DNA of 64,000 nt from contig NZ_AHTH01000048.1 of assembly GCF_000245735.1 (NCBI RefSeq), forward strand, positions 1 to 64,000, in the 5' to 3' direction. Positions 13,882-52,068 of this stretch are shown one piece after another. The translations under genes and the position numbers were made by a program. Numbering within the stretch: position 1 is the first letter of the stretch; each line of letters begins with the position of its first letter. Below the pieces are notes generated by a model. It ran no database searches. It was given only the letters and a program-made list of their open reading frames with translations, and was not told the origin of the DNA. The stretch comes from Alishewanella jeotgali KCTC 22429 (GTDB taxonomy: Bacteria; Pseudomonadota; Gammaproteobacteria; Enterobacterales; Alteromonadaceae).

Positions 13882-13917
13882 TTTGCGCTTTAGCAAATGG
13901 CGTAAAAACGCTAAAAT

Positions 13918-13946
13918 AACCGCGACCTAAGTCGCGGTTTTTTTTT
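13918..13946 (+). terminator. Intrinsic terminator after tsf
   Basis: A 9-bp stem pairs 13918-13926 with 13931-13939 around a CTAA loop, and the second arm runs into a stretch of T residues ending at 13946. It ends the rpsB-tsf transcript, so pyrH probably has its own promoter. Confidence 0.9.
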
Positions 13947-13970
13947 GCCCGGCTCGCATACACCCAAAAG

Positions 13971-14010
13971 CCTTGCAGATCCGGGTAGCCAACACCCCGC
14001 ATCTGCAGGG
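13971..14010 (+). repeat. Hairpin in the pyrH 5' region
   Basis: Ten-base arms at 13971-13980 and 14001-14010 pair with one G-U. An inner CGGGT/ACCC pairing extends the structure. It is not followed by T residues, so it is not a terminator. It lies 48 bases before pyrH and could be leader RNA structure or a protein-binding palindrome. Confidence 0.5.
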
Positions 14011-14057
14011 TTAAAGGGTATAACTGCATAACAACACCAACAGCACTAGGGGTAACC

Positions 14058-14798
14058 ATGAGTATCAATCCAAAACCAATGTATCGGCGCATCCTGTTAA
14101 AACTCAGTGGCGAGGCCCTGATGGGGGATGAAGGCTTTGGTATCGATCCTAAGGTGTTGGATCGGATGGCTCAGGAAATCAAAGAATTAGTCGAACTGGG
14201 CGTGCAGGTAGGTATCGTCATAGGTGGCGGTAATATCTTTCGTGGCGAAGGTTTAGCCAAAGCCGGTATGAACCGTGTTGTCGGCGACCATATGGGCATG
14301 TTGGCTACCGTAATGAACGGCCTGGCGATGCGTGATGCCCTGCACCGGGCGTATGTCAACGCGCGGATGATGAGCGCCATCCCATTAAACGGCGTCTGTG
14401 ATGCCTATAGCTGGGCTGAGGCCATCAGTTTATTAAAATCGGGCCGGGTAGTCATTTTCTCCGCCGGTACCGGTAATCCGTTCTTTACTACGGATTCAGC
14501 TGCCTGTTTACGCGGTATCGAGATTGAAGCCGATGCAGTTTTAAAAGCCACCAAGGTGGACGGCGTTTATTCTGCGGATCCGGTAAAGGATCCTGCCGCG
14601 ACGCTATACAGCCAACTGACCTATAACGAGGTATTGGATAAAGAACTGAAGGTCATGGATCTGGCAGCCTTTACTCTGGCACGCGACCATAATCTGCAAA
14701 TCCGCGTCTTTAATATGAACAAACCTGGCGCGCTGAAGCGGGTGATTATGGGTGAGGCCGAAGGCACAACCATCGACCATCAGGAAAATTTACAGTAA
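14058..14798 (+). CDS. pyrH: UMP kinase PyrH
   Basis: PyrH phosphorylates UMP to UDP and is the bacterial, hexameric, amino-acid-kinase-fold enzyme. The 246-aa protein shows [17 protein letters not shown] (residues 14-30), the glycine-rich [12 protein letters not shown] near residue 54, and [15 protein letters not shown] near residue 140. It is followed by frr as in most bacteria. The gene follows the tsf terminator by about 110 bases containing a hairpin. Confidence 0.98.
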
Positions 14799-14857
14799 AC
14801 TAGCCGGCCTAATGGCGCCGTTGGCGCCACAGCTGGATCAATAAAAGGATAACGATC

Positions 14858-15415
14858 GTGATTAACGACATTATTGCTGATGCAAAAGTCCGGATGGATA
14901 AAAGCGTTGAAGCGCTGAAAAGCCAACTTACTAAGGTTCGCACTGGCCGGGCCCACCCCAGCTTGCTGGACGGTATTCAAGTGTCGTACTACGGTGCCGA
15001 CACCCCGTTACGCCAGGTTGCTAACGTGTCGATTGAAGACTCTCGTACGCTGGCGATCACCGTATTTGATAAAAGCCTGACCCAGGCGGTAGAAAAAGCC
15101 ATTATGGCCTCGAATCTGGGATTAAATCCGATGTCAGCCGGTACTGTGATCCGGGTGCCATTACCACCGCTGACCGAGGAGCGTCGTAAAGATCTGGTCA
15201 AGCTGGTACGTGGCGAAGCGGAAGGCGGCCGGGTTGCTGTGCGTAATATTCGTCGTGATGCCAATGCTGACTTTAAAGCCTTACTGAAAGATAAAGAAAT
15301 CAGTGAAGATGATGAGCGTAAAGCTGCAGATGAAATTCAAAAGCTGACCGATATCTTTGTAAAGAAAATCGATGAAGTGTTAGCGGAAAAAGAGCGGGAG
15401 CTGATGGAAGTCTGA
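14858..15415 (+). CDS. frr: Ribosome recycling factor
   Basis: RRF, with EF-G, splits post-termination ribosomes. The 185-aa protein has the standard length and the motif [15 protein letters not shown] near residue 27. The long helical hairpin and the terminal helix are recognisable. It starts at GTG (14858) with an AAAGGAT ribosome binding site. An intrinsic terminator follows, separating it from uppS. Confidence 0.98.
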
Positions 15416-40028: not shown

Positions 40029-42089
40029 TCAGTATTGAATGGTTCGGCGAAACGGCGGCAGCGTATCCAGCATAGCCTTGCCATAGCTTTTAGTCACCAG
40101 CCGCCGGTCCAGGATCACGATACGACCGTGATCCTGCTCTTGTCGCAGCAGTCTACCACAAGCTTGTACCAGTTTCTTCGCAGTTGCCGGTAAACTCTGT
40201 TGTAAAAACGCATTGCCGCCGCGGGCGCTAATCGCCTCGCTTTGGGCTGCCTCCAGCGGCGAGGTCGGCACCGCAAACGGCAGCTTGGTGATAATCAGGT
40301 TAGTCAGCAACTTGCCCGGCAGATCCAGACCTTCGGCAAAGCTTTGGGTGCCGAATAAAATACTGCTGCCACCGGCCTGTACCTTTTCCTGATGCAGCTG
40401 CAACAGGGCCTGTCGTGAGGCTTCCCCCTGTACCAGTATCGAAAAACCGTTGCTACGCAGCGCACTGGCGACTTCCTGCATCTGCCAGTAAGAGGCAAAC
40501 AGCACCAGGGTGCCAGCGGGGTGATCCAGATAACCTGGTAATAAACGGATTAGCTCCTGGCTAAAGGTTGGATCGGTCGGCTCACAGCGGGTAGGAGGTA
40601 AAATAATTTCCGCTTGCTCGGCATAGGCAAAGGGCGAGTCGACCTGTAAACACTGCAGTGCGTCGAAGTCCAGTAAGCCCAGCTCGCGTTTGGCATGTTC
40701 AAAGCTGTTCAGTAGCCTGAGTGTGGCTGAGCACAGCACCACGGCAAAGGCCGGCTGAAATAATAACTGTTGTAGCTTGTAACTGACACTCAGCGGGCAG
40801 GCATGTAAATACAGCGGGCTCTGCGCACTGGTGCGGCTTAGCCAGCGTGCCTGGCTGGCAATGTCTTTTTGTGGTTGCGCCAGCAGTTGCCACAGTTGTT
40901 GTTGCTGCTCGAGCCTTAAGCGCAGGCTGGCCAGTTCATGGATCAGCTGCGGTTGGCTGCGCAGCAATTTCGGTTGCTCGGTCAGTTGTTGTTGTAATTC
41001 GTTAAGTAGCCGCTCTGTGGTCGTTAAGGCTTTATTGCTGGTTTCCGCCAAGGGTTCGGCCTGTTGCTGCCATAGCCGCGGTAGGGCCGCATGCGGAAAG
41101 CGGTACTCTGTTTGCTCAGCTTGCTTAAACCACTGCGGTAAGAAGTCTTTTAAACTGCGCTCAACAGGTTTAAGCGCAGCGGCAAAGTCACTGAGAAAAT
41201 CATCTAACTTTAACAGGTCTTTTAAGCTACGTTCGGTCAAGAGCCCTTGCAGTAACTGCAGTTGCTTACGGGCTTTTTCCAGCCAGGCTTGTTGCTGGCT
41301 TAACTGCGCGCTGGCGCTGAGTAAGTCCCGGCCGCAATCAGCCAGATGATGGGCTTCGTCTATCACATAGATGCAGTCTTCCGGTGCCGGTAATACCGCA
41401 TTACCTGCCAGCAGATCGGACAGCAGCAGGCTGTGATTTACCACCAGCACCTCTGAATCGGCGATTTCTGCGCGGGCCAGATGAAAGGGGCAATGATGAT
41501 GTTGCCGTTGTTGCTTATGACAGATATGGGCATCGGCCTGTAACTGTTGCCACAGTGAATCCGGCATCGCTTCGGTTAGCGTATCGCGATCGCCTAACCA
41601 GCGGCGGTGCTGCCAGTCACTAAGCAGCCGTTGTAACAAGGCCTGCTGGGCCGCATCCGGGCAAAAATCGGCACTGGCAAATAAGGTGGGTTGCTCAATT
41701 AATTGCTGTAAGCGTTCGATACAAGCATAGCGCTGGCGGCCTTTAACCAGGGTAAAGTTAAACTGCAGGCCACTGTGTGTCAGAAAAAACGGCAAATCCT
41801 TATTCACCAGTTGTTCCTGCAATGCCACTGTCGCGGTGGCGATGACCAGCTTCTTATTATTGGCCAGTGCATAGGGCAGGCTCCCCAAAATATAGGCCAG
41901 AGATTTACCGGTGCCGGTACCGGCTTCAATTAAGCCTAAACGTTGTTGCCTGTGGTAGTCACCGGCAATAATTTTGCTGATTTCGGCAATTAACTTATTC
42001 TGGCCGGGTCTGGGGCGGTAGCCTGGCAGCTTTTGCCGCAGCTGGGAGTGAATATCACGGATTTGTTGCTTTAAGCGGTCTGAGAGCAT
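40029..42089 (-). CDS. dinG: ATP-dependent DNA helicase DinG
   Basis: DinG is an XPD-like 5'-3' helicase that removes R-loops and helps replication through transcription. Walker A is AGTGTGKS (residues 56-63), the DEAH box is at 244-247 in YVIDEAHHLAD, and helicase motif VI-like sequence appears in QACGRLLRQEQDHG. The ending RRLVTKSYGKAMLDTLP aligns with E. coli DinG, not YoaA. Length 686 aa compares with 716. The iron-sulfur domain keeps C123, C190 and C200, but the third of the four E. coli ligands (C199 there) is not present in the C190-C200 interval. Confidence 0.93.
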   Translation of the reverse strand: MLSDRLKQQIRDIHSQLRQKLPGYRPRPGQNKLIAEISKIIAGDYHRQQRLGLIEAGTGTGKSLAYILGSLPYALANNKKLVIATATVALQEQLVNKDLPFFLTHSGLQFNFTLVKGRQRYACIERLQQLIEQPTLFASADFCPDAAQQALLQRLLSDWQHRRWLGDRDTLTEAMPDSLWQQLQADAHICHKQQRQHHHCPFHLARAEIADSEVLVVNHSLLLSDLLAGNAVLPAPEDCIYVIDEAHHLADCGRDLLSASAQLSQQQAWLEKARKQLQLLQGLLTERSLKDLLKLDDFLSDFAAALKPVERSLKDFLPQWFKQAEQTEYRFPHAALPRLWQQQAEPLAETSNKALTTTERLLNELQQQLTEQPKLLRSQPQLIHELASLRLRLEQQQQLWQLLAQPQKDIASQARWLSRTSAQSPLYLHACPLSVSYKLQQLLFQPAFAVVLCSATLRLLNSFEHAKRELGLLDFDALQCLQVDSPFAYAEQAEIILPPTRCEPTDPTFSQELIRLLPGYLDHPAGTLVLFASYWQMQEVASALRSNGFSILVQGEASRQALLQLHQEKVQAGGSSILFGTQSFAEGLDLPGKLLTNLIITKLPFAVPTSPLEAAQSEAISARGGNAFLQQSLPATAKKLVQACGRLLRQEQDHGRIVILDRRLVTKSYGKAMLDTLPPFRRTIQY

Positions 42090-42649
42090 GGCATCGATAT
42101 ATTATCGTTTTGCTTATTCTAGCCTGAGTTACCTTGCGTGCCCAGCGTTGTGATGTTGCCGCTTTGCTCGGTCCGCTTTCTCACATTTTTAGGCCGTACT
42201 GCTGAGATTGGTGCCCTAGCTACTTTGCTGCAGCCGCTAAGTTCGATCTGGATTGCCGAATTTAGCAACAATCAGATCTGGTAAGAGCAGTGCTTTTGGG
42301 TAATATAAAGTTTACAAGTCGAGCGGCCCACCATGCTGTGGCAGGGTGTTTTTGTACACTTAATCGCCACATCTGCGGCGAAATACCTTTTTAAGGGAAA
42401 TTTTTCGCAGCGGATGATCATGGTTTGTAAGCAATATGTGCTTTATACGGCAGATGCTTTTTGCTCTTTACTGACAGCGGACAGTGAATTTATAAAATTG
42501 TTCCGTAAAAGCGGTTGACCCTTGAGAAAAATTACGTTTATTATCAGGGCGCGTTACTCGGGGTGTTGTTGTAGTCAGCAATCGCTTCGCTTAAAAGCTA
42601 GTAACTGAAAAAACAGAATCACTTATTAATGTGGTCCAGGGAGATATAC
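42090..42649. other. 560-base intergenic region, dinG to first TonB receptor
   Basis: I see no convincing gene here. A 61-codon open frame at 42333-42518 lacks a ribosome binding site and family features. The only clear signal is a promoter at 42515-42544 for the receptor gene, leaving a leader of about 100 bases. I found no Fur-type box. Confidence 0.5.
42515..42544 (+). promoter_or_regulatory. Probable promoter of the first TonB receptor gene
   Basis: TTGACC (42515-42520) and TATTAT (42539-42544) are separated by 18 bases. The same hexamers with the same spacing occur at 48450-48479 before the receptor-like remnant, and the distance to the ATG is similar (106 and 110 bases). Confidence 0.6.
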
Positions 42650-45334
42650 ATGTACTCAAATAATAAATTAACCAAGGCAGTGCGCTTAGCCATCGCTTTC
42701 GGTGCAGTGTCAGCCTTTGCTGGTAGTGCCGTTGCTCAACAAGCGCAACAGAATGAAGAAGAATCTGCAAAAGTAGAACGTATCGAAGTAACGGGTTCGC
42801 GTATTAAACGTACCGATTTGGAAGGCGCTTTACCAATAACCGTTATTGACCGTGAGCAAATTGACTTATCTGGTCAAATGAGCGTTTCTGATTTGTTACG
42901 CAATACTACCTTTAACTCTTTCGGTTCTTACCGTTCAACGTCTGGCAACGCGTCTCAAGGTACTACACAAGTTAGTCTTCGTGGTCTTGGTTCAAGCAGA
43001 ACTCTAATTCTTGTTGATGTCCGCCGCTTACCTACATCACCTATCAGTGGTTCTGGTCAGGATCTTAACACTGTTCCTTTGGCTGCTGTTGAGCGGGTAG
43101 AGGTGTTAAGTGATGGTGCATCAGCAGTTTATGGTTCAGATGCAATTGGTGGTGTTATTAACATTATCACTAGAAAAGATTACGATGGTGCAGAACTTCG
43201 TTTAGGTGCTGGTCGCGTGAGTATCCCTTCAGAAGGCGGTGACCGTGAAGAAGGTTCTTTTGTAATTGGTACCTCTACCAACAAATCGCGTTTGTTAGCG
43301 GGTTTCTCTTGGAATGAGCGGGATATTATTTTCGAACGCCACTTCCCATGGAATCAGGGTAATCGTGGTATTTCGCCATATGGTAACAACTGGGCAGAAG
43401 TAACTTCTTCTGGCAGAGCGCCAGCTTCATCTAATGCTCTTTCCTTGGGTACTGCTGCTTGTGAAGGCTTAAACGAAAACTGGTTTACTACACAGAACCC
43501 ATGGATTGGTGGCGATATGTGTAGTTACGATTTCCGTCAAACCAATGCGAATGACTCCTCAGTTGGCACTCAATCAATGTTTTTCCGTGCCAGCCAGGAC
43601 ATTACTGATGATTGGCAGGTTTATGCCAACGCTTCTGCAGTAAAATCAAAATCTTTTGGTCGTTACGCAGCATCTCTGAACGATCCAGGTTCAGTTATTT
43701 CGGCAAACAGCCCGAATAACCCAACGAATCCAAATAGCCCATTGTATAACCCAGCTACTAATCGTGATGGCGTTGCAGCTCCACGTCCAGTTGCGGTATA
43801 TCATCGTTTTGCTTCTTTAGGAACACGTGATAGTCAAGTTGACAACTATACAACTGATGTTCAAATGGGCTTTACTGGTATGGTAAACGACGTTGAAGTT
43901 GAATTTGGTGGCCGCAAAACGAAAACTAAAGTTTACAACATGGGTAATGGTTACCTGCTGCGTTCAGTTGCAAACGTAGCGATGGAAAACGGTACCTATA
44001 TGTTAAATGATCCGTTAGGTTCTCGTTTCACTACTCCAGAAGATCGCGCAGCATATCGTCGCTTGTTAGACTCACTGAATATCACCATTTCACGTATCAA
44101 CCTGTTTGATATGAAAGAAGTGTTTGCAAATGCATCTTTTGACGTGCTTGAGCTTCAGCATGGTATGGTGCAAATGTTTGTTGGTACTGAGTACCGTTCA
44201 GAAGATTATGCTGATATTTATGACTCGCAATCTGCAGCTGGTACTGTAGGTGGTTCTGCAGGTAGCTCAGCGGGTGGTGGCCGTAATGTAAGAGCTGCCT
44301 ATTTTGAAACACTGGTGCCGGTGCTTGACAATTTAGAGCTGAATTTCGCAGGCCGTTATGATAAATATTCAGATTATGGTTCAGATTTCTCACCAAAAGC
44401 GTCATTACGTTATGAGCCATTAGATGGCTTAGTATTACGCGCGTCTTATGGTAAGGGATTCCGTGCTCCAACTCTGGATATTTTGACCCAGCAGCCTTCA
44501 CCTGGTAATCCACAAGTTCGTGACTTTGTTTTATGTGATTTCAGAGGTCAAACTACCTGTCCTCAAGGTCAGCTACGTGCTACCACTGTATCAAACTCTG
44601 AATTAGCTTCTGAGAAGTCTACCCAAATTGCCTTGGGTCTGGCATACCAGCCAACTGATTGGGTAAATTTTGCAGTTGACTACTATGACATTGAAATTAC
44701 AGATGCAATTTCATTCATTGGCTTACAGGCTTTAATTAATACTGAGCGTGCTGGTGATGCGTTCCCTGCCGGTCTGGGAATAGTGCGTGACCCTGTGACG
44801 AGAGTAATCGTTGATGCAACTACCGGTTATGCTAACAGAGGTTCTGTCGAAACAAATGGTTTAGACATTAATGTTCGCTTCAACTTTGATCTGGGTAATG
44901 TCGGGCGTTTGACTCATAATCTGCAGTTTGGTCATGTCTTTGAGTATTCTATTGATGGTGGCCGGAATTTAGTTCGCGATCCGGGTACGCCTCGTCAAAG
45001 AGCATCACTGTCTAACGTATACTCGTACGGTGATTTTGACTTTGCCTGGAATATCAATGCCATCGGCAACCAGTACAATAGTGTGACTCGACCTACTACT
45101 GGTCCAAACGCCGGTCAGTTAGTAAAAGCCGGAAATATCGCTACTTGGATCACTCATGATGCGCAAGTGCGCTACACACTGGGTTGGAATGCTGATATCG
45201 TAGTTGGTGTACAAAACCTGTTTGAGAAATATCCTCAATTAAATACAGGTGCAGCTGATGGTCGTGGTTTTGACTACACCTTGTATGATGGTTCAGGCCG
45301 TATTTCTTACGTACGTTACACTCAACGTTTCTGA
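42650..45334 (+). CDS. TonB-dependent receptor (large, plug plus barrel)
   Basis: An 894-aa outer-membrane receptor. A signal peptide ends near residue 30 (AVAQ). The TonB-box-like segment ERIEVTGSRIKR is followed by the plug domain, with VSLRGLGSSRTLILVDVRRLP and GASAVYGSDAIGGVINIIT. A 22-strand barrel follows, ending in phenylalanine. The frame is open 7 codons upstream, but the ATG at 42650 follows a GGGAGA site and gives the typical NNKLTKAVRLAIAFG leader of this family. The ligand is unknown; relatives are often linked to peptidases. Base composition is more A+T-rich than in flanking core genes. Confidence 0.92.
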   Translation: MYSNNKLTKAVRLAIAFGAVSAFAGSAVAQQAQQNEEESAKVERIEVTGSRIKRTDLEGALPITVIDREQIDLSGQMSVSDLLRNTTFNSFGSYRSTSGNASQGTTQVSLRGLGSSRTLILVDVRRLPTSPISGSGQDLNTVPLAAVERVEVLSDGASAVYGSDAIGGVINIITRKDYDGAELRLGAGRVSIPSEGGDREEGSFVIGTSTNKSRLLAGFSWNERDIIFERHFPWNQGNRGISPYGNNWAEVTSSGRAPASSNALSLGTAACEGLNENWFTTQNPWIGGDMCSYDFRQTNANDSSVGTQSMFFRASQDITDDWQVYANASAVKSKSFGRYAASLNDPGSVISANSPNNPTNPNSPLYNPATNRDGVAAPRPVAVYHRFASLGTRDSQVDNYTTDVQMGFTGMVNDVEVEFGGRKTKTKVYNMGNGYLLRSVANVAMENGTYMLNDPLGSRFTTPEDRAAYRRLLDSLNITISRINLFDMKEVFANASFDVLELQHGMVQMFVGTEYRSEDYADIYDSQSAAGTVGGSAGSSAGGGRNVRAAYFETLVPVLDNLELNFAGRYDKYSDYGSDFSPKASLRYEPLDGLVLRASYGKGFRAPTLDILTQQPSPGNPQVRDFVLCDFRGQTTCPQGQLRATTVSNSELASEKSTQIALGLAYQPTDWVNFAVDYYDIEITDAISFIGLQALINTERAGDAFPAGLGIVRDPVTRVIVDATTGYANRGSVETNGLDINVRFNFDLGNVGRLTHNLQFGHVFEYSIDGGRNLVRDPGTPRQRASLSNVYSYGDFDFAWNINAIGNQYNSVTRPTTGPNAGQLVKAGNIATWITHDAQVRYTLGWNADIVVGVQNLFEKYPQLNTGAADGRGFDYTLYDGSGRISYVRYTQRF

Positions 45335-45355
45335 TAGCTGATTAAGTAAAATCCG

Positions 45356-45384
45356 AAAAGGGCAGTGTTTAACTGCCCTTTTTT
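45356..45384 (+). terminator. Intrinsic terminator after the first TonB receptor
   Basis: A 7-bp core stem (45360-45366 with 45372-45378), lengthened by A-T pairs, has a GTTTA loop and runs into TTTTTT. The methyltransferase ATG follows 13 bases later, so that gene is read by read-through or from another promoter. Confidence 0.85.
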
Positions 45385-45396
45385 ATTGGAGTTGTT

Positions 45397-46353
45397 ATGG
45401 CACAACATTGGTCTACCTATTGGCAAAGTGCGTTAAGCCTGAACAGTTTTAGCGAAGGTGAAATGGCAGCCGGCTATCAGGGAGAATTAAAAGACTTTTG
45501 GTATCAGATTTTTTCTTGCTTACCCGCTGCGGCAGAGGTTCTGGATGTCGGGACTGGAAATGGTGCACTGGCATTAATGCTGCTGCAGTACGCCGATGCC
45601 TCGGGATCTCAGTTTACAGTCAGGGCATCTGATGCGGCTGAGATAGACAAAGAACTGATTATGAGAAAATTTCCTGCTTTACGGGCGGATATTTCACGAA
45701 TTGATTTCTACCCGGAAACCAAAATTGAAAGCCTGCCCTTTGCTGATGGATCTCTGAGTCTGATTACCAGCCAGTTTGCGTTAGAGTATGCGCAGCCAAG
45801 TCAGGCGGTACAAAGCTGTATGCGTGTACTGAAGCCGGCAGGACGTTTAGAGGCGGTAATTCATCATGCTGAGACGCCCTTGCTGCAGCAGTCCCGTCAG
45901 CTATTACAGTTGTTAACCGCTTTTACTACGCCAGATTTTCTGTCTCTGCTTGCTAAATTTAAAGAAAGCGTGCTGCAACTGGCTAGTGATAACTCTGAAC
46001 CGGCTTATCAGCAATTTGAAGTTGTTAACCGCAAGCTGCTGGAAACTGCCCGTCAGCTGCATTTGCAGGCAGAACAACTGGGGATTGCCGATGATTTTCA
46101 GGACGTATTGGCAAAATTTGCTGCTTGCTTCGTCGATTTATCGCTGGCAACGCCGGATAAACTGGCGTTCTTTCTGACTGAGCTGGGCTATTACCGGTTA
46201 CGGCTAGCAGATCAAATTGCTGCCGCCTGGGATGTTAAAAAATGTGAATTTTGGGTAAGCTGTTTTGCCAGGTATAAGTGCCAAGTAAGTTGTGAGCCGC
46301 TTTACCTTAACAAGGAACTGTTTGGCTGGCATTTGTCAGTTTTAAAGCAGTAA
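45397..46353 (+). CDS. Class I SAM-dependent methyltransferase
   Basis: A 318-aa protein with a Rossmann-fold methyltransferase domain in the first 170 residues. Motif I is VLDVGTGNGALALML (near residue 48), an acidic end to strand 2 lies near SDAAEID, and SLPFADGSLSLITSQFALEY near residue 112 is the UbiE-like motif. The C-terminal 140 residues are helical and of no family I know. The substrate is unknown. It lies between two outer-membrane receptors and just before a secreted S9 peptidase, perhaps acting on the same metabolite; that is inference. Confidence 0.82.
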   Translation: MAQHWSTYWQSALSLNSFSEGEMAAGYQGELKDFWYQIFSCLPAAAEVLDVGTGNGALALMLLQYADASGSQFTVRASDAAEIDKELIMRKFPALRADISRIDFYPETKIESLPFADGSLSLITSQFALEYAQPSQAVQSCMRVLKPAGRLEAVIHHAETPLLQQSRQLLQLLTAFTTPDFLSLLAKFKESVLQLASDNSEPAYQQFEVVNRKLLETARQLHLQAEQLGIADDFQDVLAKFAACFVDLSLATPDKLAFFLTELGYYRLRLADQIAAAWDVKKCEFWVSCFARYKCQVSCEPLYLNKELFGWHLSVLKQ

Positions 46354-46383
46354 ATATTGGAATTGTGTTGATTGGAAGCTGTT

Positions 46384-48333
46384 ATGCAAAAGTTAGTATT
46401 AAGCCTGTTGCTGTGTTTAGCCAGCTTCGCTGCTGGCGCGGCGATTAAAACCATAGATTTCTTCGATCATGCAAAAGTAAAAAATATGAAAATATCGCCA
46501 GATGGTAAACAACTGGCGTTTAATTACGAAGAGGGCTCAGAAGTGCGCTTGGCGGTAATGCAGCTGAGTAATATGCAGATTAAGAGTAGCTTTGCCTTTG
46601 GCGAGAATAAGCATGTATTAAACTTTCATTGGGCCAACAATGACCGCGTACTGATGGAAGTGGCAGAGGTAACCGGCAACCTAGTCTCTATGCAGGGCAC
46701 CAGTGTTGACCTCTATGCTGCCAATCCTGACGGTCGCCGCCGCACTCAGCTTTTCCAAACCAATATGTCTACCTACACCATTTTGCATCTATTACCAGAC
46801 CAACCTGATCGGATCTTGATTGGTAAGTATCACTGGGCAGAAAAGAACGGTATGCGCGCTTTTACGCTGGATGTAAATCGCGGCACAGAGCGTTTCCTTG
46901 ATGACCAGCCACCAGGCGTGGTGGCCAGCCTGATGGCCGATAATAGCGGCACTTTACGGATGGGAATCGAATTTATTGAAGGCAAAGAGTTTGACCAGAA
47001 TAAAGCCGTACTGCATATCAAACAACAAGGGCAGTGGCAACGTATGGAGTTACCGTCCCGCAGAGTCAATCCGCTGGTGCAACCTTTGGGTTTTAGTGCG
47101 GATAACAAAATCGCCTATTTTATTTCTAATTTCGACCTAGCAGAGGGTGATCGGCAAGGCGTTTTCGCCTACGACTTTGACAATAAGACGCTAGAGCTGG
47201 TGGCTCGGCATGAATACTCTGATATTAATGGTCGCTCCGTGGCACATGATGGCGAATTACTGGCAGTCAATTATGTTGCTGGGATAGCCGAACATGAGTT
47301 TATTACCGCCAGTCATCCGGGTGCCTTGTTATTGGCTGGTCTGAAAAATGCGTTTGAAGGTCAAAAAGTGACTATAACGTCCTTTGATCGCAAAGGACAA
47401 TTGGCGTTATTTCATGTGAGCGGTGACCGCAACCCCGGCGAGTTTTATTTATATGACATGCAGAAGAAGCAAGCGCGCTATTTGGCGTCAGTAAAACCCA
47501 ATCTGGATGTTAAGCAGCTGGTGCCAATGCAAACGGTAAGTTTCGCGGCACGTGATGGCTTGGCTTTGCACGGTTATTTAACCTTGCCGCAGCAGCAGAG
47601 CAGCAAGTTGCCGCTGATCGTTAATGTACACGGTGGCCCCTATGGTCCTTATGATAGCTGGGGCTTTAACGCTGAAGCACAATTTTTTGCACATCATGGC
47701 TATGCCACTTTACAAGTGAATTTCCGAGGTTCGGGTGGTTATGGCGAAGACTTTCAACGGGCTGGTCGGTTACAGTGGGGCCGCGCCATGCAAGATGACT
47801 TGGCTGATGCCGTGCACTGGGCTGTAGCACAGGGTATTGCCGATCCTGAGCGTGTTTGTATTTATGGTGGTAGCTATGGCGGTTATGCGGCCATTTGGGG
47901 CGTAATTAAGGATCCGGAGTTATATCGCTGCGCAGTTGGCTATGTTGGTGTGTATGATATGCCGCTGTTTTTCAAAGGTGACGGTTCGGACGCCAGTCGT
48001 AGTCGCAACATAGGGCAGTACCTGCGCTCTCATGTTGGCGAAGGGCAGGAGTATTTACAGAGTATTTCTCCGGTGCATAATGTCGATAAAATTCAGGTTC
48101 CACTGCTGATCGTGCACGGCTCGAAAGATGTGCGGGTTCCTATTGTTCACGCTAATAATTTACGTCGTGCGCTGGACGCTGCTGGTAAACAGTATCAGTG
48201 GTTGGTAAAGGAGGATGGACACGGTTTCTATCAGGTTGCCAATCGGGTCGAGTTATACGAAACCATGCTAACATTCTTTAACCAACATATTGGTCAGAAG
48301 ACGCCGCTGCCGGTTGAAAATCGCGCAAACTAA
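46384..48333 (+). CDS. S9 family (prolyl oligopeptidase-like) secreted peptidase
   Basis: A 649-aa exported serine peptidase. The signal peptide spans residues 1-20. A beta-propeller covers about 25-370 and an alpha/beta-hydrolase domain 385-640. The catalytic triad is readable as S497 in GGSYGGYAA, D582 in HGSKDVRVP and H613 in EDGHGFY. The start at 46384 follows GGAAG; a TTG four codons upstream is less likely. It probably trims short peptides in the periplasm. Neighbouring TonB receptors suggest a peptide-uptake role. Confidence 0.9.
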   Translation: MQKLVLSLLLCLASFAAGAAIKTIDFFDHAKVKNMKISPDGKQLAFNYEEGSEVRLAVMQLSNMQIKSSFAFGENKHVLNFHWANNDRVLMEVAEVTGNLVSMQGTSVDLYAANPDGRRRTQLFQTNMSTYTILHLLPDQPDRILIGKYHWAEKNGMRAFTLDVNRGTERFLDDQPPGVVASLMADNSGTLRMGIEFIEGKEFDQNKAVLHIKQQGQWQRMELPSRRVNPLVQPLGFSADNKIAYFISNFDLAEGDRQGVFAYDFDNKTLELVARHEYSDINGRSVAHDGELLAVNYVAGIAEHEFITASHPGALLLAGLKNAFEGQKVTITSFDRKGQLALFHVSGDRNPGEFYLYDMQKKQARYLASVKPNLDVKQLVPMQTVSFAARDGLALHGYLTLPQQQSSKLPLIVNVHGGPYGPYDSWGFNAEAQFFAHHGYATLQVNFRGSGGYGEDFQRAGRLQWGRAMQDDLADAVHWAVAQGIADPERVCIYGGSYGGYAAIWGVIKDPELYRCAVGYVGVYDMPLFFKGDGSDASRSRNIGQYLRSHVGEGQEYLQSISPVHNVDKIQVPLLIVHGSKDVRVPIVHANNLRRALDAAGKQYQWLVKEDGHGFYQVANRVELYETMLTFFNQHIGQKTPLPVENRAN

Positions 48334-48346
48334 CAACAGCATCGCT

Positions 48347-48389
48347 GCGCTGGCCACTCAGTTGTTCCCAAGTTCTGGGTGGCCAGCGC
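48347..48389. repeat. 11-bp perfect hairpin after the S9 peptidase gene
   Basis: Arms at 48347-48357 and 48379-48389 are perfectly complementary around a 21-base loop, 13 bases after the stop codon. No T-run follows, so it may stabilise the 3' end of the mRNA or act as a Rho-independent signal of poor form. Confidence 0.6.
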
Positions 48390-48449
48390 CGTCTGACCAT
48401 CTCACCGTAAAAAAGTTGCATCCCTGCTACTATTTATCAATATTTAAGC

Positions 48450-48479
48450 TTGACCTGAATTTTTTTTGCTGCATATTAT
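48450..48479 (+). promoter_or_regulatory. Probable promoter upstream of the receptor-like remnant
   Basis: TTGACC (48450-48455), an 18-base spacer and TATTAT (48474-48479) repeat the hexamers found before the first receptor. Downstream, the leader contains a 7-bp hairpin (48518-48524 with 48532-48538). Confidence 0.55.
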
Positions 48480-48588
48480 TAATTGTTTAGTTCAGGTTAC
48501 TATCTGAATGTTTTAAGCACGTTCCTCTCACGAACGTGTCTGCCAACAAAAATGAGATAGTTTGTAAAGCTATCCAGGGAGCTAAAAT

Positions 48589-48660
48589 ATGTTCACCAAT
48601 AATAAATTAAGCAAAGCCGTGCGGCTGGCAATGATGTTTGAGTTTTGTATACTGAGTTAA
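48589..48660 (+). pseudogene. Remnant of a TonB receptor gene start (or 23-codon leader ORF)
   Basis: The sequence TCCAGGGAGCTAAAAT followed by ATG opens a 23-codon frame whose product begins MFTNNKLSKAVRLA and ends with a stop at 48660. Residues 1-14 match the first receptor's MYSNNKLTKAVRLA at 11 of 14 positions, including 12 identical consecutive bases (AATAATAAATTA) and the same ribosome-binding context TCCAGGGAG. Beyond residue 14 the similarity stops. The simplest reading is the surviving 5' end of a third receptor gene whose body was lost. A functional leader peptide is the alternative. Confidence 0.7.
48625..48653 (+). promoter_or_regulatory. Candidate promoter of the second TonB receptor gene
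   Basis: CTGGCA (48625-48630) and TATACT (48648-48653), 17 bases apart, lie inside the remnant frame. A start near 48660 would place the palindrome at 48665-48679 just downstream, a usual repressor position. Confidence 0.45.
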
Positions 48661-48664
48661 AATT

Positions 48665-48679
48665 GAGTTCAATGAACTC
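48665..48679. promoter_or_regulatory. Perfect palindrome GAGTTC-AAT-GAACTC, possible operator
   Basis: Six-base arms flank an AAT centre. The palindrome lies between the remnant frame and the second receptor gene, 30 bases before its ATG. It has no T-run, so a protein-binding site is more likely than a terminator. The regulator is unknown. Confidence 0.5.
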
Positions 48680-48709
48680 TCAAATATAATAAAATTGAAG
48701 GATAATCTA

Positions 48710-51109
48710 ATGAATAAAAAACTTAAACTTAGTTGTTTGTCATTGGCCATGGCATCCGTATTAATTCCAGGGACTACTGCTTATGCTAATGAGGAAGAAG
48801 CTAAAGATACCAAAGATATAGAGGTTATTACCGTTACTTCGCGCAAGAGGGTTGAAACGCTGGTAGAAGTACCGATGAATGTGACGTCTGTTTCAGCAAT
48901 GGAGATTGCAGATCGGAATCTTATTACAAAAGATGATCTGCAGCGGACGTTAGCTGGTGCAGCCTCTCCAACGGGAGTATTAATTCTTCGGGGATTATCT
49001 GGGGGTAACAGCGCTGCTCCTTCAACCACATCCTCTTTTACCGATGACATCCCATTTAACTTTGTCGATTTGTATGACACCGAGGCAGTTGAAGTACTGC
49101 GCGGACCGCAAGGAACTTTATGGGGGTCAAATGCGATTGGTGGCACGATTCGCGTGATTACGCAGAAACCGCGGCTGGATACATTCGAGTTTATTTCATC
49201 AGCACAAACAAAGTCTACCAAAAATGTTGGTGGTAACGAGCTGCAAGCATGGGCTGCGATTAACATACCTTTGATTGATGACACTCTTGCAATGCGCATT
49301 ACTGGGCACAACTCACATAAACCGGGTGCAATCGTTAATGCTAATACAGGCGTGCAACGTAAAGTGGAAGATCGTTATTTACGCACCCAGGTGCTCTGGC
49401 AAATCAACGACGATACCAATGTTAACTTCGGTTATTACAATGTCAGCAGCAACTCCATAGGTACAAGAATAGCCGATTTGTCGCAGCCGACCGGAAGACG
49501 AATTGCAAGTACCACACCTAATCCTGACTCTTTATGGGGTTATGACGTTGCCTATACCGTACAACCGTGCCCGGCGGGACAGAACCGCGCGGAGTGCTTT
49601 GGTAATGTGACGAACAGGTCAAAGCGTGATTATCTGATTTGGGAGAGCATGGATAACTGGTTAGAAACTGAAACTAACTTATTTACTGTGACTGCCAATA
49701 TAGACAATGTTTTCAACTTTGCAGACGTAACTTATGCAGGTTCATATCGGCAGTTTCAGGAAGATTCGCTCGATAATTGGTCACGATTGGATATGGCCGA
49801 TATGGTTAAAACCTGGATTATCAATTACGACAAGATCTCTCGGGTTACTCACGAATTCAGGATCCAGGATAATGGCCAACAAGATAGCGTAAAGTGGACC
49901 GTCGGTGCGTTTTATGACAAAAATTGGAGAGGTGCAATCCCGAATAGTCAGTACCAGTATCATCAAAAGGATGCAGCCAGTATAGCGGTCTTTTCGGACT
50001 GGAACGACTGGGTAGACTGGGAAGATTACTGGGGTGAACTGGGTATTTTTAACGTCGGTCAGTTAGGGCAGGCGTTATACGGTGATAGTAGTAAGAATTA
50101 TAATTTTTACTATGATGGACAGTATGCGAGAGAGTTCGCACTTTTCGGTGAAGTCAGTTACATCATAAAAACAGACAATATTGGTCGTTTCGAGCTGACA
50201 GGTGGGATTCGCTATTTTGATTTAGAGGACTATGCTTCTTATGGCTATTCTGGAATCTGGGAAGCTCGGGAAGGACGTGCAGTATTGAGTCAGGGTGAGG
50301 AGTCCGGCAATCGGAAGAAGGTGAGCATCGCTTGGTTACCAGATTCTTCAAATATGTCAATTTATGCTCTTTATTCAGAGGGCTATCGCCCAGGTGGTAA
50401 TAATGCGCCTCTGGCTAATGCTTGTCGGAATGACGAATTTGCCGGGGCGTTCCAGGAGCGTTATAAGAGTGATAGCATAGACAACTATGAAATTGGTTAC
50501 AAAGCGAATACAGGGCGATTACAGTTCTCAACTGCAATCTATCAAATTAATTGGAGCGACGTATGGGCCAGTGTATATATGCCCAGTTGTGGTTTCAGCT
50601 ATACAGCCAATGCCGCTAAAGCCCGCTCACGCGGCCTGGAGTGGGAAAGCAAGTACAGTTTTGATCACGACTTGGATCTGGTATTTAATGCGTCTTATAC
50701 CAATTCCAAAATGTTGAGTGATGTCCCTTCGTTACAGGCAAAAGCTGGGCAGGATATGACCCAGGTCCCTAAATACAATGCCTATCTTGGTCTTGATAAA
50801 GGCTTGAGTCTGTTTGATAAACAAACGTACTTGCGTTTGGATATCGAAGCTTATGGTGAATATAAATCGCATTTTAATGCCCGTTTAGATGGTTCCGATA
50901 CCTCACCGTCTTATCAGCGCGTGAACTTGTCCAGCCGGATGGAGTTAAATGATAATATTCGCTTAAGTTTTTATATTAATAACGTTTTTGACAAGCAAAT
51001 CGATCTTTACCGTCAAGCTCGTACACGCTCAGGTAGCACGAACAATCTGAATGTGTTATTCGCACCAGAGAGAAGTTTTACTTTACGTGTTGATTACACG
51101 TTCTTATAA
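48710..51109 (+). CDS. TonB-dependent receptor (second)
   Basis: A 799-aa outer-membrane receptor of a different subfamily from the first. The signal peptide ends near residue 26 (AYA). The segment IEVITVTSRKRVETLVEVPM carries the TonB-box-like region, followed by a plug with VLILRGLSGGN and VEVLRGPQGTLWGSNAIGGTIRVIT, then a barrel ending FTLRVDYTFL. The plug resembles the siderophore/sterol-type receptors that read VLRGPQGTL. The start is the ATG at 48710 behind AAGGAT. A strong terminator follows. No ligand can be assigned. Confidence 0.92.
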   Translation: MNKKLKLSCLSLAMASVLIPGTTAYANEEEAKDTKDIEVITVTSRKRVETLVEVPMNVTSVSAMEIADRNLITKDDLQRTLAGAASPTGVLILRGLSGGNSAAPSTTSSFTDDIPFNFVDLYDTEAVEVLRGPQGTLWGSNAIGGTIRVITQKPRLDTFEFISSAQTKSTKNVGGNELQAWAAINIPLIDDTLAMRITGHNSHKPGAIVNANTGVQRKVEDRYLRTQVLWQINDDTNVNFGYYNVSSNSIGTRIADLSQPTGRRIASTTPNPDSLWGYDVAYTVQPCPAGQNRAECFGNVTNRSKRDYLIWESMDNWLETETNLFTVTANIDNVFNFADVTYAGSYRQFQEDSLDNWSRLDMADMVKTWIINYDKISRVTHEFRIQDNGQQDSVKWTVGAFYDKNWRGAIPNSQYQYHQKDAASIAVFSDWNDWVDWEDYWGELGIFNVGQLGQALYGDSSKNYNFYYDGQYAREFALFGEVSYIIKTDNIGRFELTGGIRYFDLEDYASYGYSGIWEAREGRAVLSQGEESGNRKKVSIAWLPDSSNMSIYALYSEGYRPGGNNAPLANACRNDEFAGAFQERYKSDSIDNYEIGYKANTGRLQFSTAIYQINWSDVWASVYMPSCGFSYTANAAKARSRGLEWESKYSFDHDLDLVFNASYTNSKMLSDVPSLQAKAGQDMTQVPKYNAYLGLDKGLSLFDKQTYLRLDIEAYGEYKSHFNARLDGSDTSPSYQRVNLSSRMELNDNIRLSFYINNVFDKQIDLYRQARTRSGSTNNLNVLFAPERSFTLRVDYTFL

Positions 51110-51132
51110 GTTAGACTTGTTTCAATGATCTT

Positions 51133-51167
51133 AAGCATGGTTTAATTCGTTAAACCATGCTTTTTTT
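51133..51167 (+). terminator. Intrinsic terminator after the second TonB receptor
   Basis: A 13-bp perfect stem (51133-51145 with 51150-51162) with a TTCG tetraloop is followed by a T-run. It isolates the receptor block from the apt region. Confidence 0.92.
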
Positions 51168-51293
51168 ATGCGTGACTCATAAAGCGAAGCTTCTCGGATT
51201 GCTCTAGTTGCATGCTATGTTGTCAAGTAGAAAGCTTATGTATGCTACTACGCTTTTCAATGCTGCCAAAATTCATTACCATAGGCGCCGGTT

Positions 51294-51307
51294 TTGATGT
51301 AGATCAA
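51294..51307. promoter_or_regulatory. Exact FNR/EtrA-type binding site
   Basis: TTGATGTAGATCAA matches the FNR consensus TTGAT-N4-ATCAA without mismatch. It lies 20 bases before the small ORF's ATG. A class II position (-41.5) would put the transcription start near 51342, inside that ORF, so the exact arrangement is unclear. Repression or a later start are possible. Confidence 0.6.
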
Positions 51308-51327
51308 CTTGTAGGCGGTAAAGCAGT

Positions 51328-51447
51328 ATGGCTGATGAAAACTTTAAAGACAGCTTCAACCTGAAGCAGTTAATATTATTCGTTATTTGTTTCGCTGGCC
51401 TGTTATGTCTGGCCCCGATCCTCCGCTGGATCCAGTTACTTTCCTAA
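51328..51447 (+). CDS. Small 39-aa single-helix membrane protein
   Basis: The frame encodes MADENFKDSFNLKQ followed by one hydrophobic helix (about residues 15-32) and a short tail, RWIQLLS. The features in its favour are a polar N-terminus, a clean transmembrane helix, a terminator 22 bases after the stop and an FNR site just upstream. AGGCGG about nine bases before the ATG could serve as a weak ribosome binding site. I do not recognise the family. It is too short to be sure from sequence alone. Confidence 0.5.
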   Translation: MADENFKDSFNLKQLILFVICFAGLLCLAPILRWIQLLS

Positions 51448-51469
51448 AAGTAAGGTTACATCGGGTATG

Positions 51470-51494
51470 AGCCGCCACCGGGGCGGCTTTTTTG
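51470..51494 (+). terminator. Intrinsic terminator before apt
   Basis: A 7-bp stem (51470-51476 with 51482-51488) with a 5-base loop runs into TTTTTT. It lies 23 bases after the small ORF and 25 bases before apt. Confidence 0.85.
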
Positions 51495-51519
51495 TCTGTA
51501 TTGATTTAAGGGTATAGAG

Positions 51520-52068
51520 ATGGACTACCAACAGCTTGCTATCGAATTGCAGCAGGTAATTAAAACGGTTGAGAATTATCCGAAACCGGGCATTACTTTT
51601 CGCGATGTCACCAGCCTGATGCAGGATGGCCCCAGTTTTAAAAAGGTGATTGATGCTTTCGTCGCCCGGTATCAGGCTGCCGGTATCACGAAAATTATCG
51701 GTACTGAGTCGCGCGGTTTTATTTTTGGTGCTCCGCTGGCTTATGCGCTGGGTGTCGCCTTTGTACCGGTACGTAAACCCGGCAAGTTACCACGCGAGCG
51801 TATTTCACAGGCCTATTCATTGGAGTACGGCGAAGATGCGCTGGAACTGCATGCTGATGCTATCGTCGCTGGCGACAAGGTATTGCTAGTCGACGATTTA
51901 CTGGCCACCGGCGGCACCATTGACGCCACGGTAAAACTGGTACGTCGCTTAGGTGGCACTGTAGCTGATGCCGCCTTTGTGATCGCCTTACCAGAACTGG
52001 GCGGTGTTGCACGCTTAGAAAAGCTCGGTTTAACCCTGTGTAGTCTGGTTGAGTATCACGGCGAATAG
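51520..52068 (+). CDS. apt: Adenine phosphoribosyltransferase
   Basis: Apt salvages adenine to AMP with PRPP. The 182-aa protein has the usual length, the PRPP motif [17 protein letters not shown] near residue 126 and the adenine-side [18 protein letters not shown] near residue 60. It heads the apt-dnaX-ybaB-recR-htpG order known from E. coli. The terminator just upstream suggests initiation close to its start. Confidence 0.97.

Follow-up and report, generated by a model that had tools for sequence, protein, structure and literature searches.

The question raised by this locus is how a frame of 23 codons that begins like a TonB-dependent receptor came to stand before an unrelated receptor gene with a start of its own. 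The frame lies on the plus strand at positions 48589-48660 of the window, that is the whole stretch of 64,000 nucleotides from Alishewanella jeotgali KCTC 22429 that was analysed, with an ATG at 48589, a TAA at 48658-48660 and the peptide MFTNNKLSKAVRLAMMFEFCILS before the stop. Its presence and its receptor-like start, as given in a preliminary description, were recovered from the sequence of the window, and so was the statement that the downstream receptor (R2 hereafter) is unrelated and starts independently, namely at 48710 behind its own AGGA ribosome-binding site. Two explanations had been offered, a receptor gene replaced by the present one or a translated leader tuning it, and on the comparison with related genomes we consider it very probable that this short frame is a stump, the surviving 5' end of a syntenic receptor gene that was replaced in place by R2.

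Related genomes were searched at the DNA level with positions 48334-48800, and 29 of 60 genomes matched, the query genome included, all of them members of the genus; among the weaker matches many were the starts of other receptors. Larger stretches were fetched for 28 relatives (referred to by genome numbers below), in 17 of which the gene apt was present, the other 11, with G003 (taken to be A. aestuarii B11) among them, being uninformative on the slot before this gene. An intact receptor of 966-990 residues with an MFTN start stands 304-380 bases before apt in nine of these 17 relatives. Eight of the nine belong to one family (56-100% identity to the protein of G023), and the ninth, in G026, is 28% identical to the G023 protein. 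The comparison with related strains proposed in the preliminary description has therefore yielded an intact receptor at the same position, and the idea of a third receptor gene that was replaced, leaving its promoter region and signal-peptide start behind, is supported. A search of the genus found the old receptor family at the apt locus with 58-86% identity in seven genomes besides the query's own, and the old receptor is missing from the present genome at E 1e-60 (27 of 31 candidates of this genome scored).

The slot before apt is variable in any case. Seven of the 17 relatives (G012, G015, G007, G021, G018, G024 and G009) carry other genes there, and none of four receptor queries matched before apt in these seven at E 1e-3; apt is preceded there by a pair of frames (about 283 and 253 residues) together with a small one that looks secreted, a set that we take to resemble DUF692-type bufferin genes. 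One further relative, G022 (L048, oriented coordinates 13902-14886), shows a broken receptor of the G026 type before apt, of which residues 1-67 and 114-392 match (67% and 76%); its first frame, which has the same kind of start (MFTNSKLSKAMRLA), soon stops, and an inner part and the end are missing. This is a second, independent case of loss or decay at the same slot.

When this genome was aligned with G003, G005, G011, G023 and G019, a promoter-like site, the motif TCCAGGGAG and the first 17 codons were found to be common, and after codon 17 this genome and G003 diverge together from the other four. A putative sigma-70 promoter (TTGACC, spacer of 18, TATTAT; 48450-48479, plus strand), indicated by a promoter scan and by the alignment, would be that of the lost receptor gene, retained in place; G003, G005 and G011 have both hexamers unchanged, and in G023 and G019 only TTGACC is conserved. 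It is followed on the same strand by the ribosome-binding region of the lost gene (48573-48588), in which TCCAGGGAG is identical in the six aligned genomes, and by the stump itself (48589-48639, plus strand), i.e., the first 17 codons with the signal-peptide start. The 17 residues of the stump are fully matched in the syntenic intact genes of G011 and G023, to 16 of 17 in G005 and G019 and to 13 to 15 of 17 in G006, G028 and G026; by blastn the syntenic genes match with E 2e-20 (G005), 5e-15 (G011) and 2e-14 (G019 and G028). The last part of the frame (48640-48660, plus strand), which ends in TAA, appears to be a chance read-through of six codons into incoming DNA.

Sharp breakpoints were found on both sides of the incoming receptor. 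On the left, matches to the syntenic genes stop between 48629 and 48640 (G005 at 48633, G011 and G023 at 48640), and on the right the old downstream flank leading to apt (51251-51519, plus strand) resumes at 51251, from where 296 bases are 95% identical to G005; in G005 this position lies 74 bases past the receptor stop codon. The exchanged stretch therefore extends from codon 18 to just past the old stop. A small frame of 39 residues (MADENFKDSFNLKQLILFVICFAGLLCLAPILRWIQLLS) lies within this flank at 51328-51447 of the plus strand, and its start is kept before apt in G005, G011, G023 and G019; with its one hydrophobic stretch it looks like a small membrane protein, and it had no Pfam match. 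The assembly of A. aestuarii B11 is interrupted shortly downstream of R2, at about window position 51205 (L108, G003:C8 1-331); the flank of R2 lies on one contig and apt on another, and their order was inferred across the break. At its beginning the second contig carries what is presumably the last part of a transposase gene of the IS630 type, edged by TA, and an insertion element probably sits at the 3' flank of R2 in that strain and not in the present genome.

R2 (48710-51109, plus strand) is a TonB-dependent receptor of 799 amino acids with Plug and beta-barrel Pfam domains above cut-off. It is followed on the plus strand by a putative terminator, a strong hairpin with a 13-pair stem and a T run (51133-51162), obtained from a terminator scan, with a fold of 51130-51172 at -15.7 kcal/mol. 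The protein is 99% identical in A. aestuarii B11 and, with a dN/dS of 0.02 between the two genomes, is under strong purifying selection. Within the genus R2 was detected at E 1e-30 in two of 31 genomes, this one and A. aestuarii B11, and in the family 25 of 395 genomes have a relative of R2 at E 1e-80, the same two included, while the rest are 46-78% identical. Its closest relatives, with 70-78% identity, are located at unrelated loci in Alkalimonas and Rheinheimera, presumably between sucD-like and glnS-like genes in Alkalimonas and, in Rheinheimera sp. 1928-s, downstream of an rpoS-like gene. A search for the donor with the DNA upstream of R2 (48625-48712) gave no clear match beyond the present genome and G003 among the 31 genus genomes (next best E 0.0125) or among 24 loci with R2 relatives, and a donor carrying the flanks of R2 did not turn up. 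In G+C content the 2.4 kb segment at 48400 ranks lowest within the 64 kb (43.3%, the mean being 50.3%), but a foreign base composition of R2 proves little about its origin, as the intact receptors of the locus themselves have 44% (G011), 45% (G023) and 48% (G005).

A promoter scan of the region returned four promoter-like sites compared with 1.5 (sd 1.4) in shuffles. One of them, from the consensus scan only, could serve R2 (TTGAGT, spacer of 16, TATAAT; 48663-48690, plus strand), and is doubtful since its leader would be only about 13 bases long. The spacer of this putative promoter encloses a perfect palindrome, GAGTTCAATGAACTC, at 48665-48679, which is a possible operator. No regulon with this palindrome as shared operator is proposed: an exact match to the 17-base pattern occurs once in this genome, and when up to three mismatches are allowed there are 23 hits, against 14 for the reversed control.

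With regard to the date of the swap, A. aestuarii B11 has both the stump and R2, and the synonymous divergence between the two genomes is 0.246 for R2 and 0.248 for the neighbouring S9 peptidase gene. Since these values are equal, one swap before the split from A. aestuarii is likely, and the exchange is most simply placed in the common ancestor of both genomes. In two flanking stretches G003 is 97% and 92% identical to this genome and G005 82% and 82%, and G005 is therefore regarded as an outgroup with an intact gene. In a small phylogeny built from apt, the first 900 bases of dnaX, and recR for 13 genomes (recR missing for G018), G003 groups with G005 and not with this genome (support 82/79), and the identity of G005 is 95% just right of the breakpoint in comparison with 82% further out. 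This tree conflict and the raised identity count against a wholly simple account; they were read as local recombination near apt, but the right flank has had a complicated history.

The whole stretch from DinG to apt is variable. The first receptor (42650-45334, plus strand) has a synonymous divergence of 0.71 to A. aestuarii, the next two genes 0.09 and 0.25, and the contrast between 0.71 and the 0.09 of the methyltransferase gene suggests allele exchange in the region. This methyltransferase gene (45397-46353, plus strand), situated between the first receptor and the peptidase gene, is 36% identical in G005, where DinG is 84% identical.

We propose that the place between the S9 peptidase gene and apt was once occupied by a gene for a TonB-dependent receptor of about 970-990 residues, and that the part from codon 18 to about 70 bases past its stop was exchanged for a cassette in which R2 came with a start, a ribosome-binding site and a terminator of its own. 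What stayed behind of the old gene were its promoter region, the untranslated region and the first 17 codons. A horizontal origin of R2 seems probable, and the old promoter may still fire through the stump into R2, with the stump perhaps translated as a by-product.

The preliminary description had taken the frame for a copy of the receptor at 42650, 6 kb upstream, and parts of this observation were borne out: 11 of 14 residues are identical (MFTNNKLSKAVRLA and MYSNNKLTKAVRLA), and TCCAGGGAG stands just upstream of both starts, with nine bases of the ribosome-binding region in common, while the longest common run is 13 bases (AATAATAAATTAA) instead of the 12 reported. A partial duplication of the 5' end of that receptor, to which these similarities could point, is nevertheless highly improbable, given that the syntenic receptors of the relatives are closer (up to 17 of 17 residues, as against 12 of 17), and the frame descends from this separate gene. 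Chance resemblance or convergent use of signal-peptide codons would find some backing in the weak DNA pairing with the upstream receptor, which is so judged, taken alone, because a 69-base query against the own genome did not return that receptor among matches at E up to 10. It would also find some in the commonness of such starts, the frame and the receptor at 42650 belonging to one set of receptors with a similar beginning. The pattern MxxNNKLxKAVRLA occurs in 37 distinct long frames of the loci fetched and, among short frames, in this one; as the scan required V or I before R and so missed the short frame of G022, rarity cannot be read from it. Yet 36 of 51 bases agree with the upstream receptor and 28 of 51 with the next best place (ungapped, both strands, 64-kb window), which is above chance within the window. 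The homology with G005 moreover extends upstream through the old putative promoter (71% over 239 columns, E 2e-20), and the intact gene of the relatives occupies the same place, so that chance or convergence is scarcely credible as an explanation.

The idea that the stump has become a functional translated leader, tuning R2 either through coupling or because ribosomes occupy the untranslated region, is harder to set aside and is still judged unlikely. It would profit from the intact promoter-like site and ribosome-binding site and from the finding that 48334-48800 contains no plus-strand terminator-like site; because these elements were kept and no such terminator-like site precedes R2, the stump may lie in the transcript. 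Its peptide is identical in A. aestuarii, and the sole change in 72 bases (at 48654) is synonymous, where the mean for 72 bases is 4.5 differences. But this conservation is unexceptional, as in the 17 kb alignment with A. aestuarii 21.6% of the 72-base windows show one difference or none, and 6.6% of the 211-base windows reach the similarity of the block 48588-48798, and a comparison of two genomes has little power. Tight coupling would also be unlikely, because the stop codon of the stump lies 49 bases before the start of R2, which is served by the AGGA site. Furthermore, only two of the genomes searched have the stump. With 48610-48725 as query against 24 loci with R2 relatives, a clear match was obtained only at the A. 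aestuarii locus (E 4e-55; next 0.057). At gathering thresholds, Rfam gave no match over 42000-52000, and no curated riboswitch or leader RNA reached the cut-off. In a wider version, which we regard as quite unlikely, the slot before apt would be a place of exchange, at which one receptor body is substituted for another while the promoter and a start of about 17 codons are conserved, and the stump would here be a leader that puts R2 under the control of the old receptor. The receptor of G026, with the same kind of start and 28% identity, and the broken G026-type gene of G022 would then be further turnovers. Replacement of the old receptor remains the preferred account, and the stump is most likely an inert relic that is perhaps translated incidentally.

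The locus offers a clean example of an outer-membrane receptor exchanged at a fixed place with both breakpoints readable, and if the old promoter drives R2, the swap would also have moved R2 under foreign control. It further illustrates that a short frame which begins like a signal peptide can be a relic and not a small protein. The event is ordinary in kind and well resolved here; in-place exchange of receptor genes is already a known kind of event. Xenologous gene displacement in situ means that a distant or unrelated gene with a similar function takes over the position of a resident one between conserved flanks. The present case is similar in that a resident receptor was exchanged at its place and the flanks were kept, and differs in that a stump of 17 codons and the old promoter region remain and that the incoming gene has a start and a terminator of its own. 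For the pyoverdine receptor of Pseudomonas aeruginosa (fpvA), the scattered receptor types have been read as suggestive of multiple recombination events involving a TonB-dependent receptor locus (PMC2777410). The fpvA types match the pyoverdine made by the strain, whereas at the present locus the two receptors are dissimilar.
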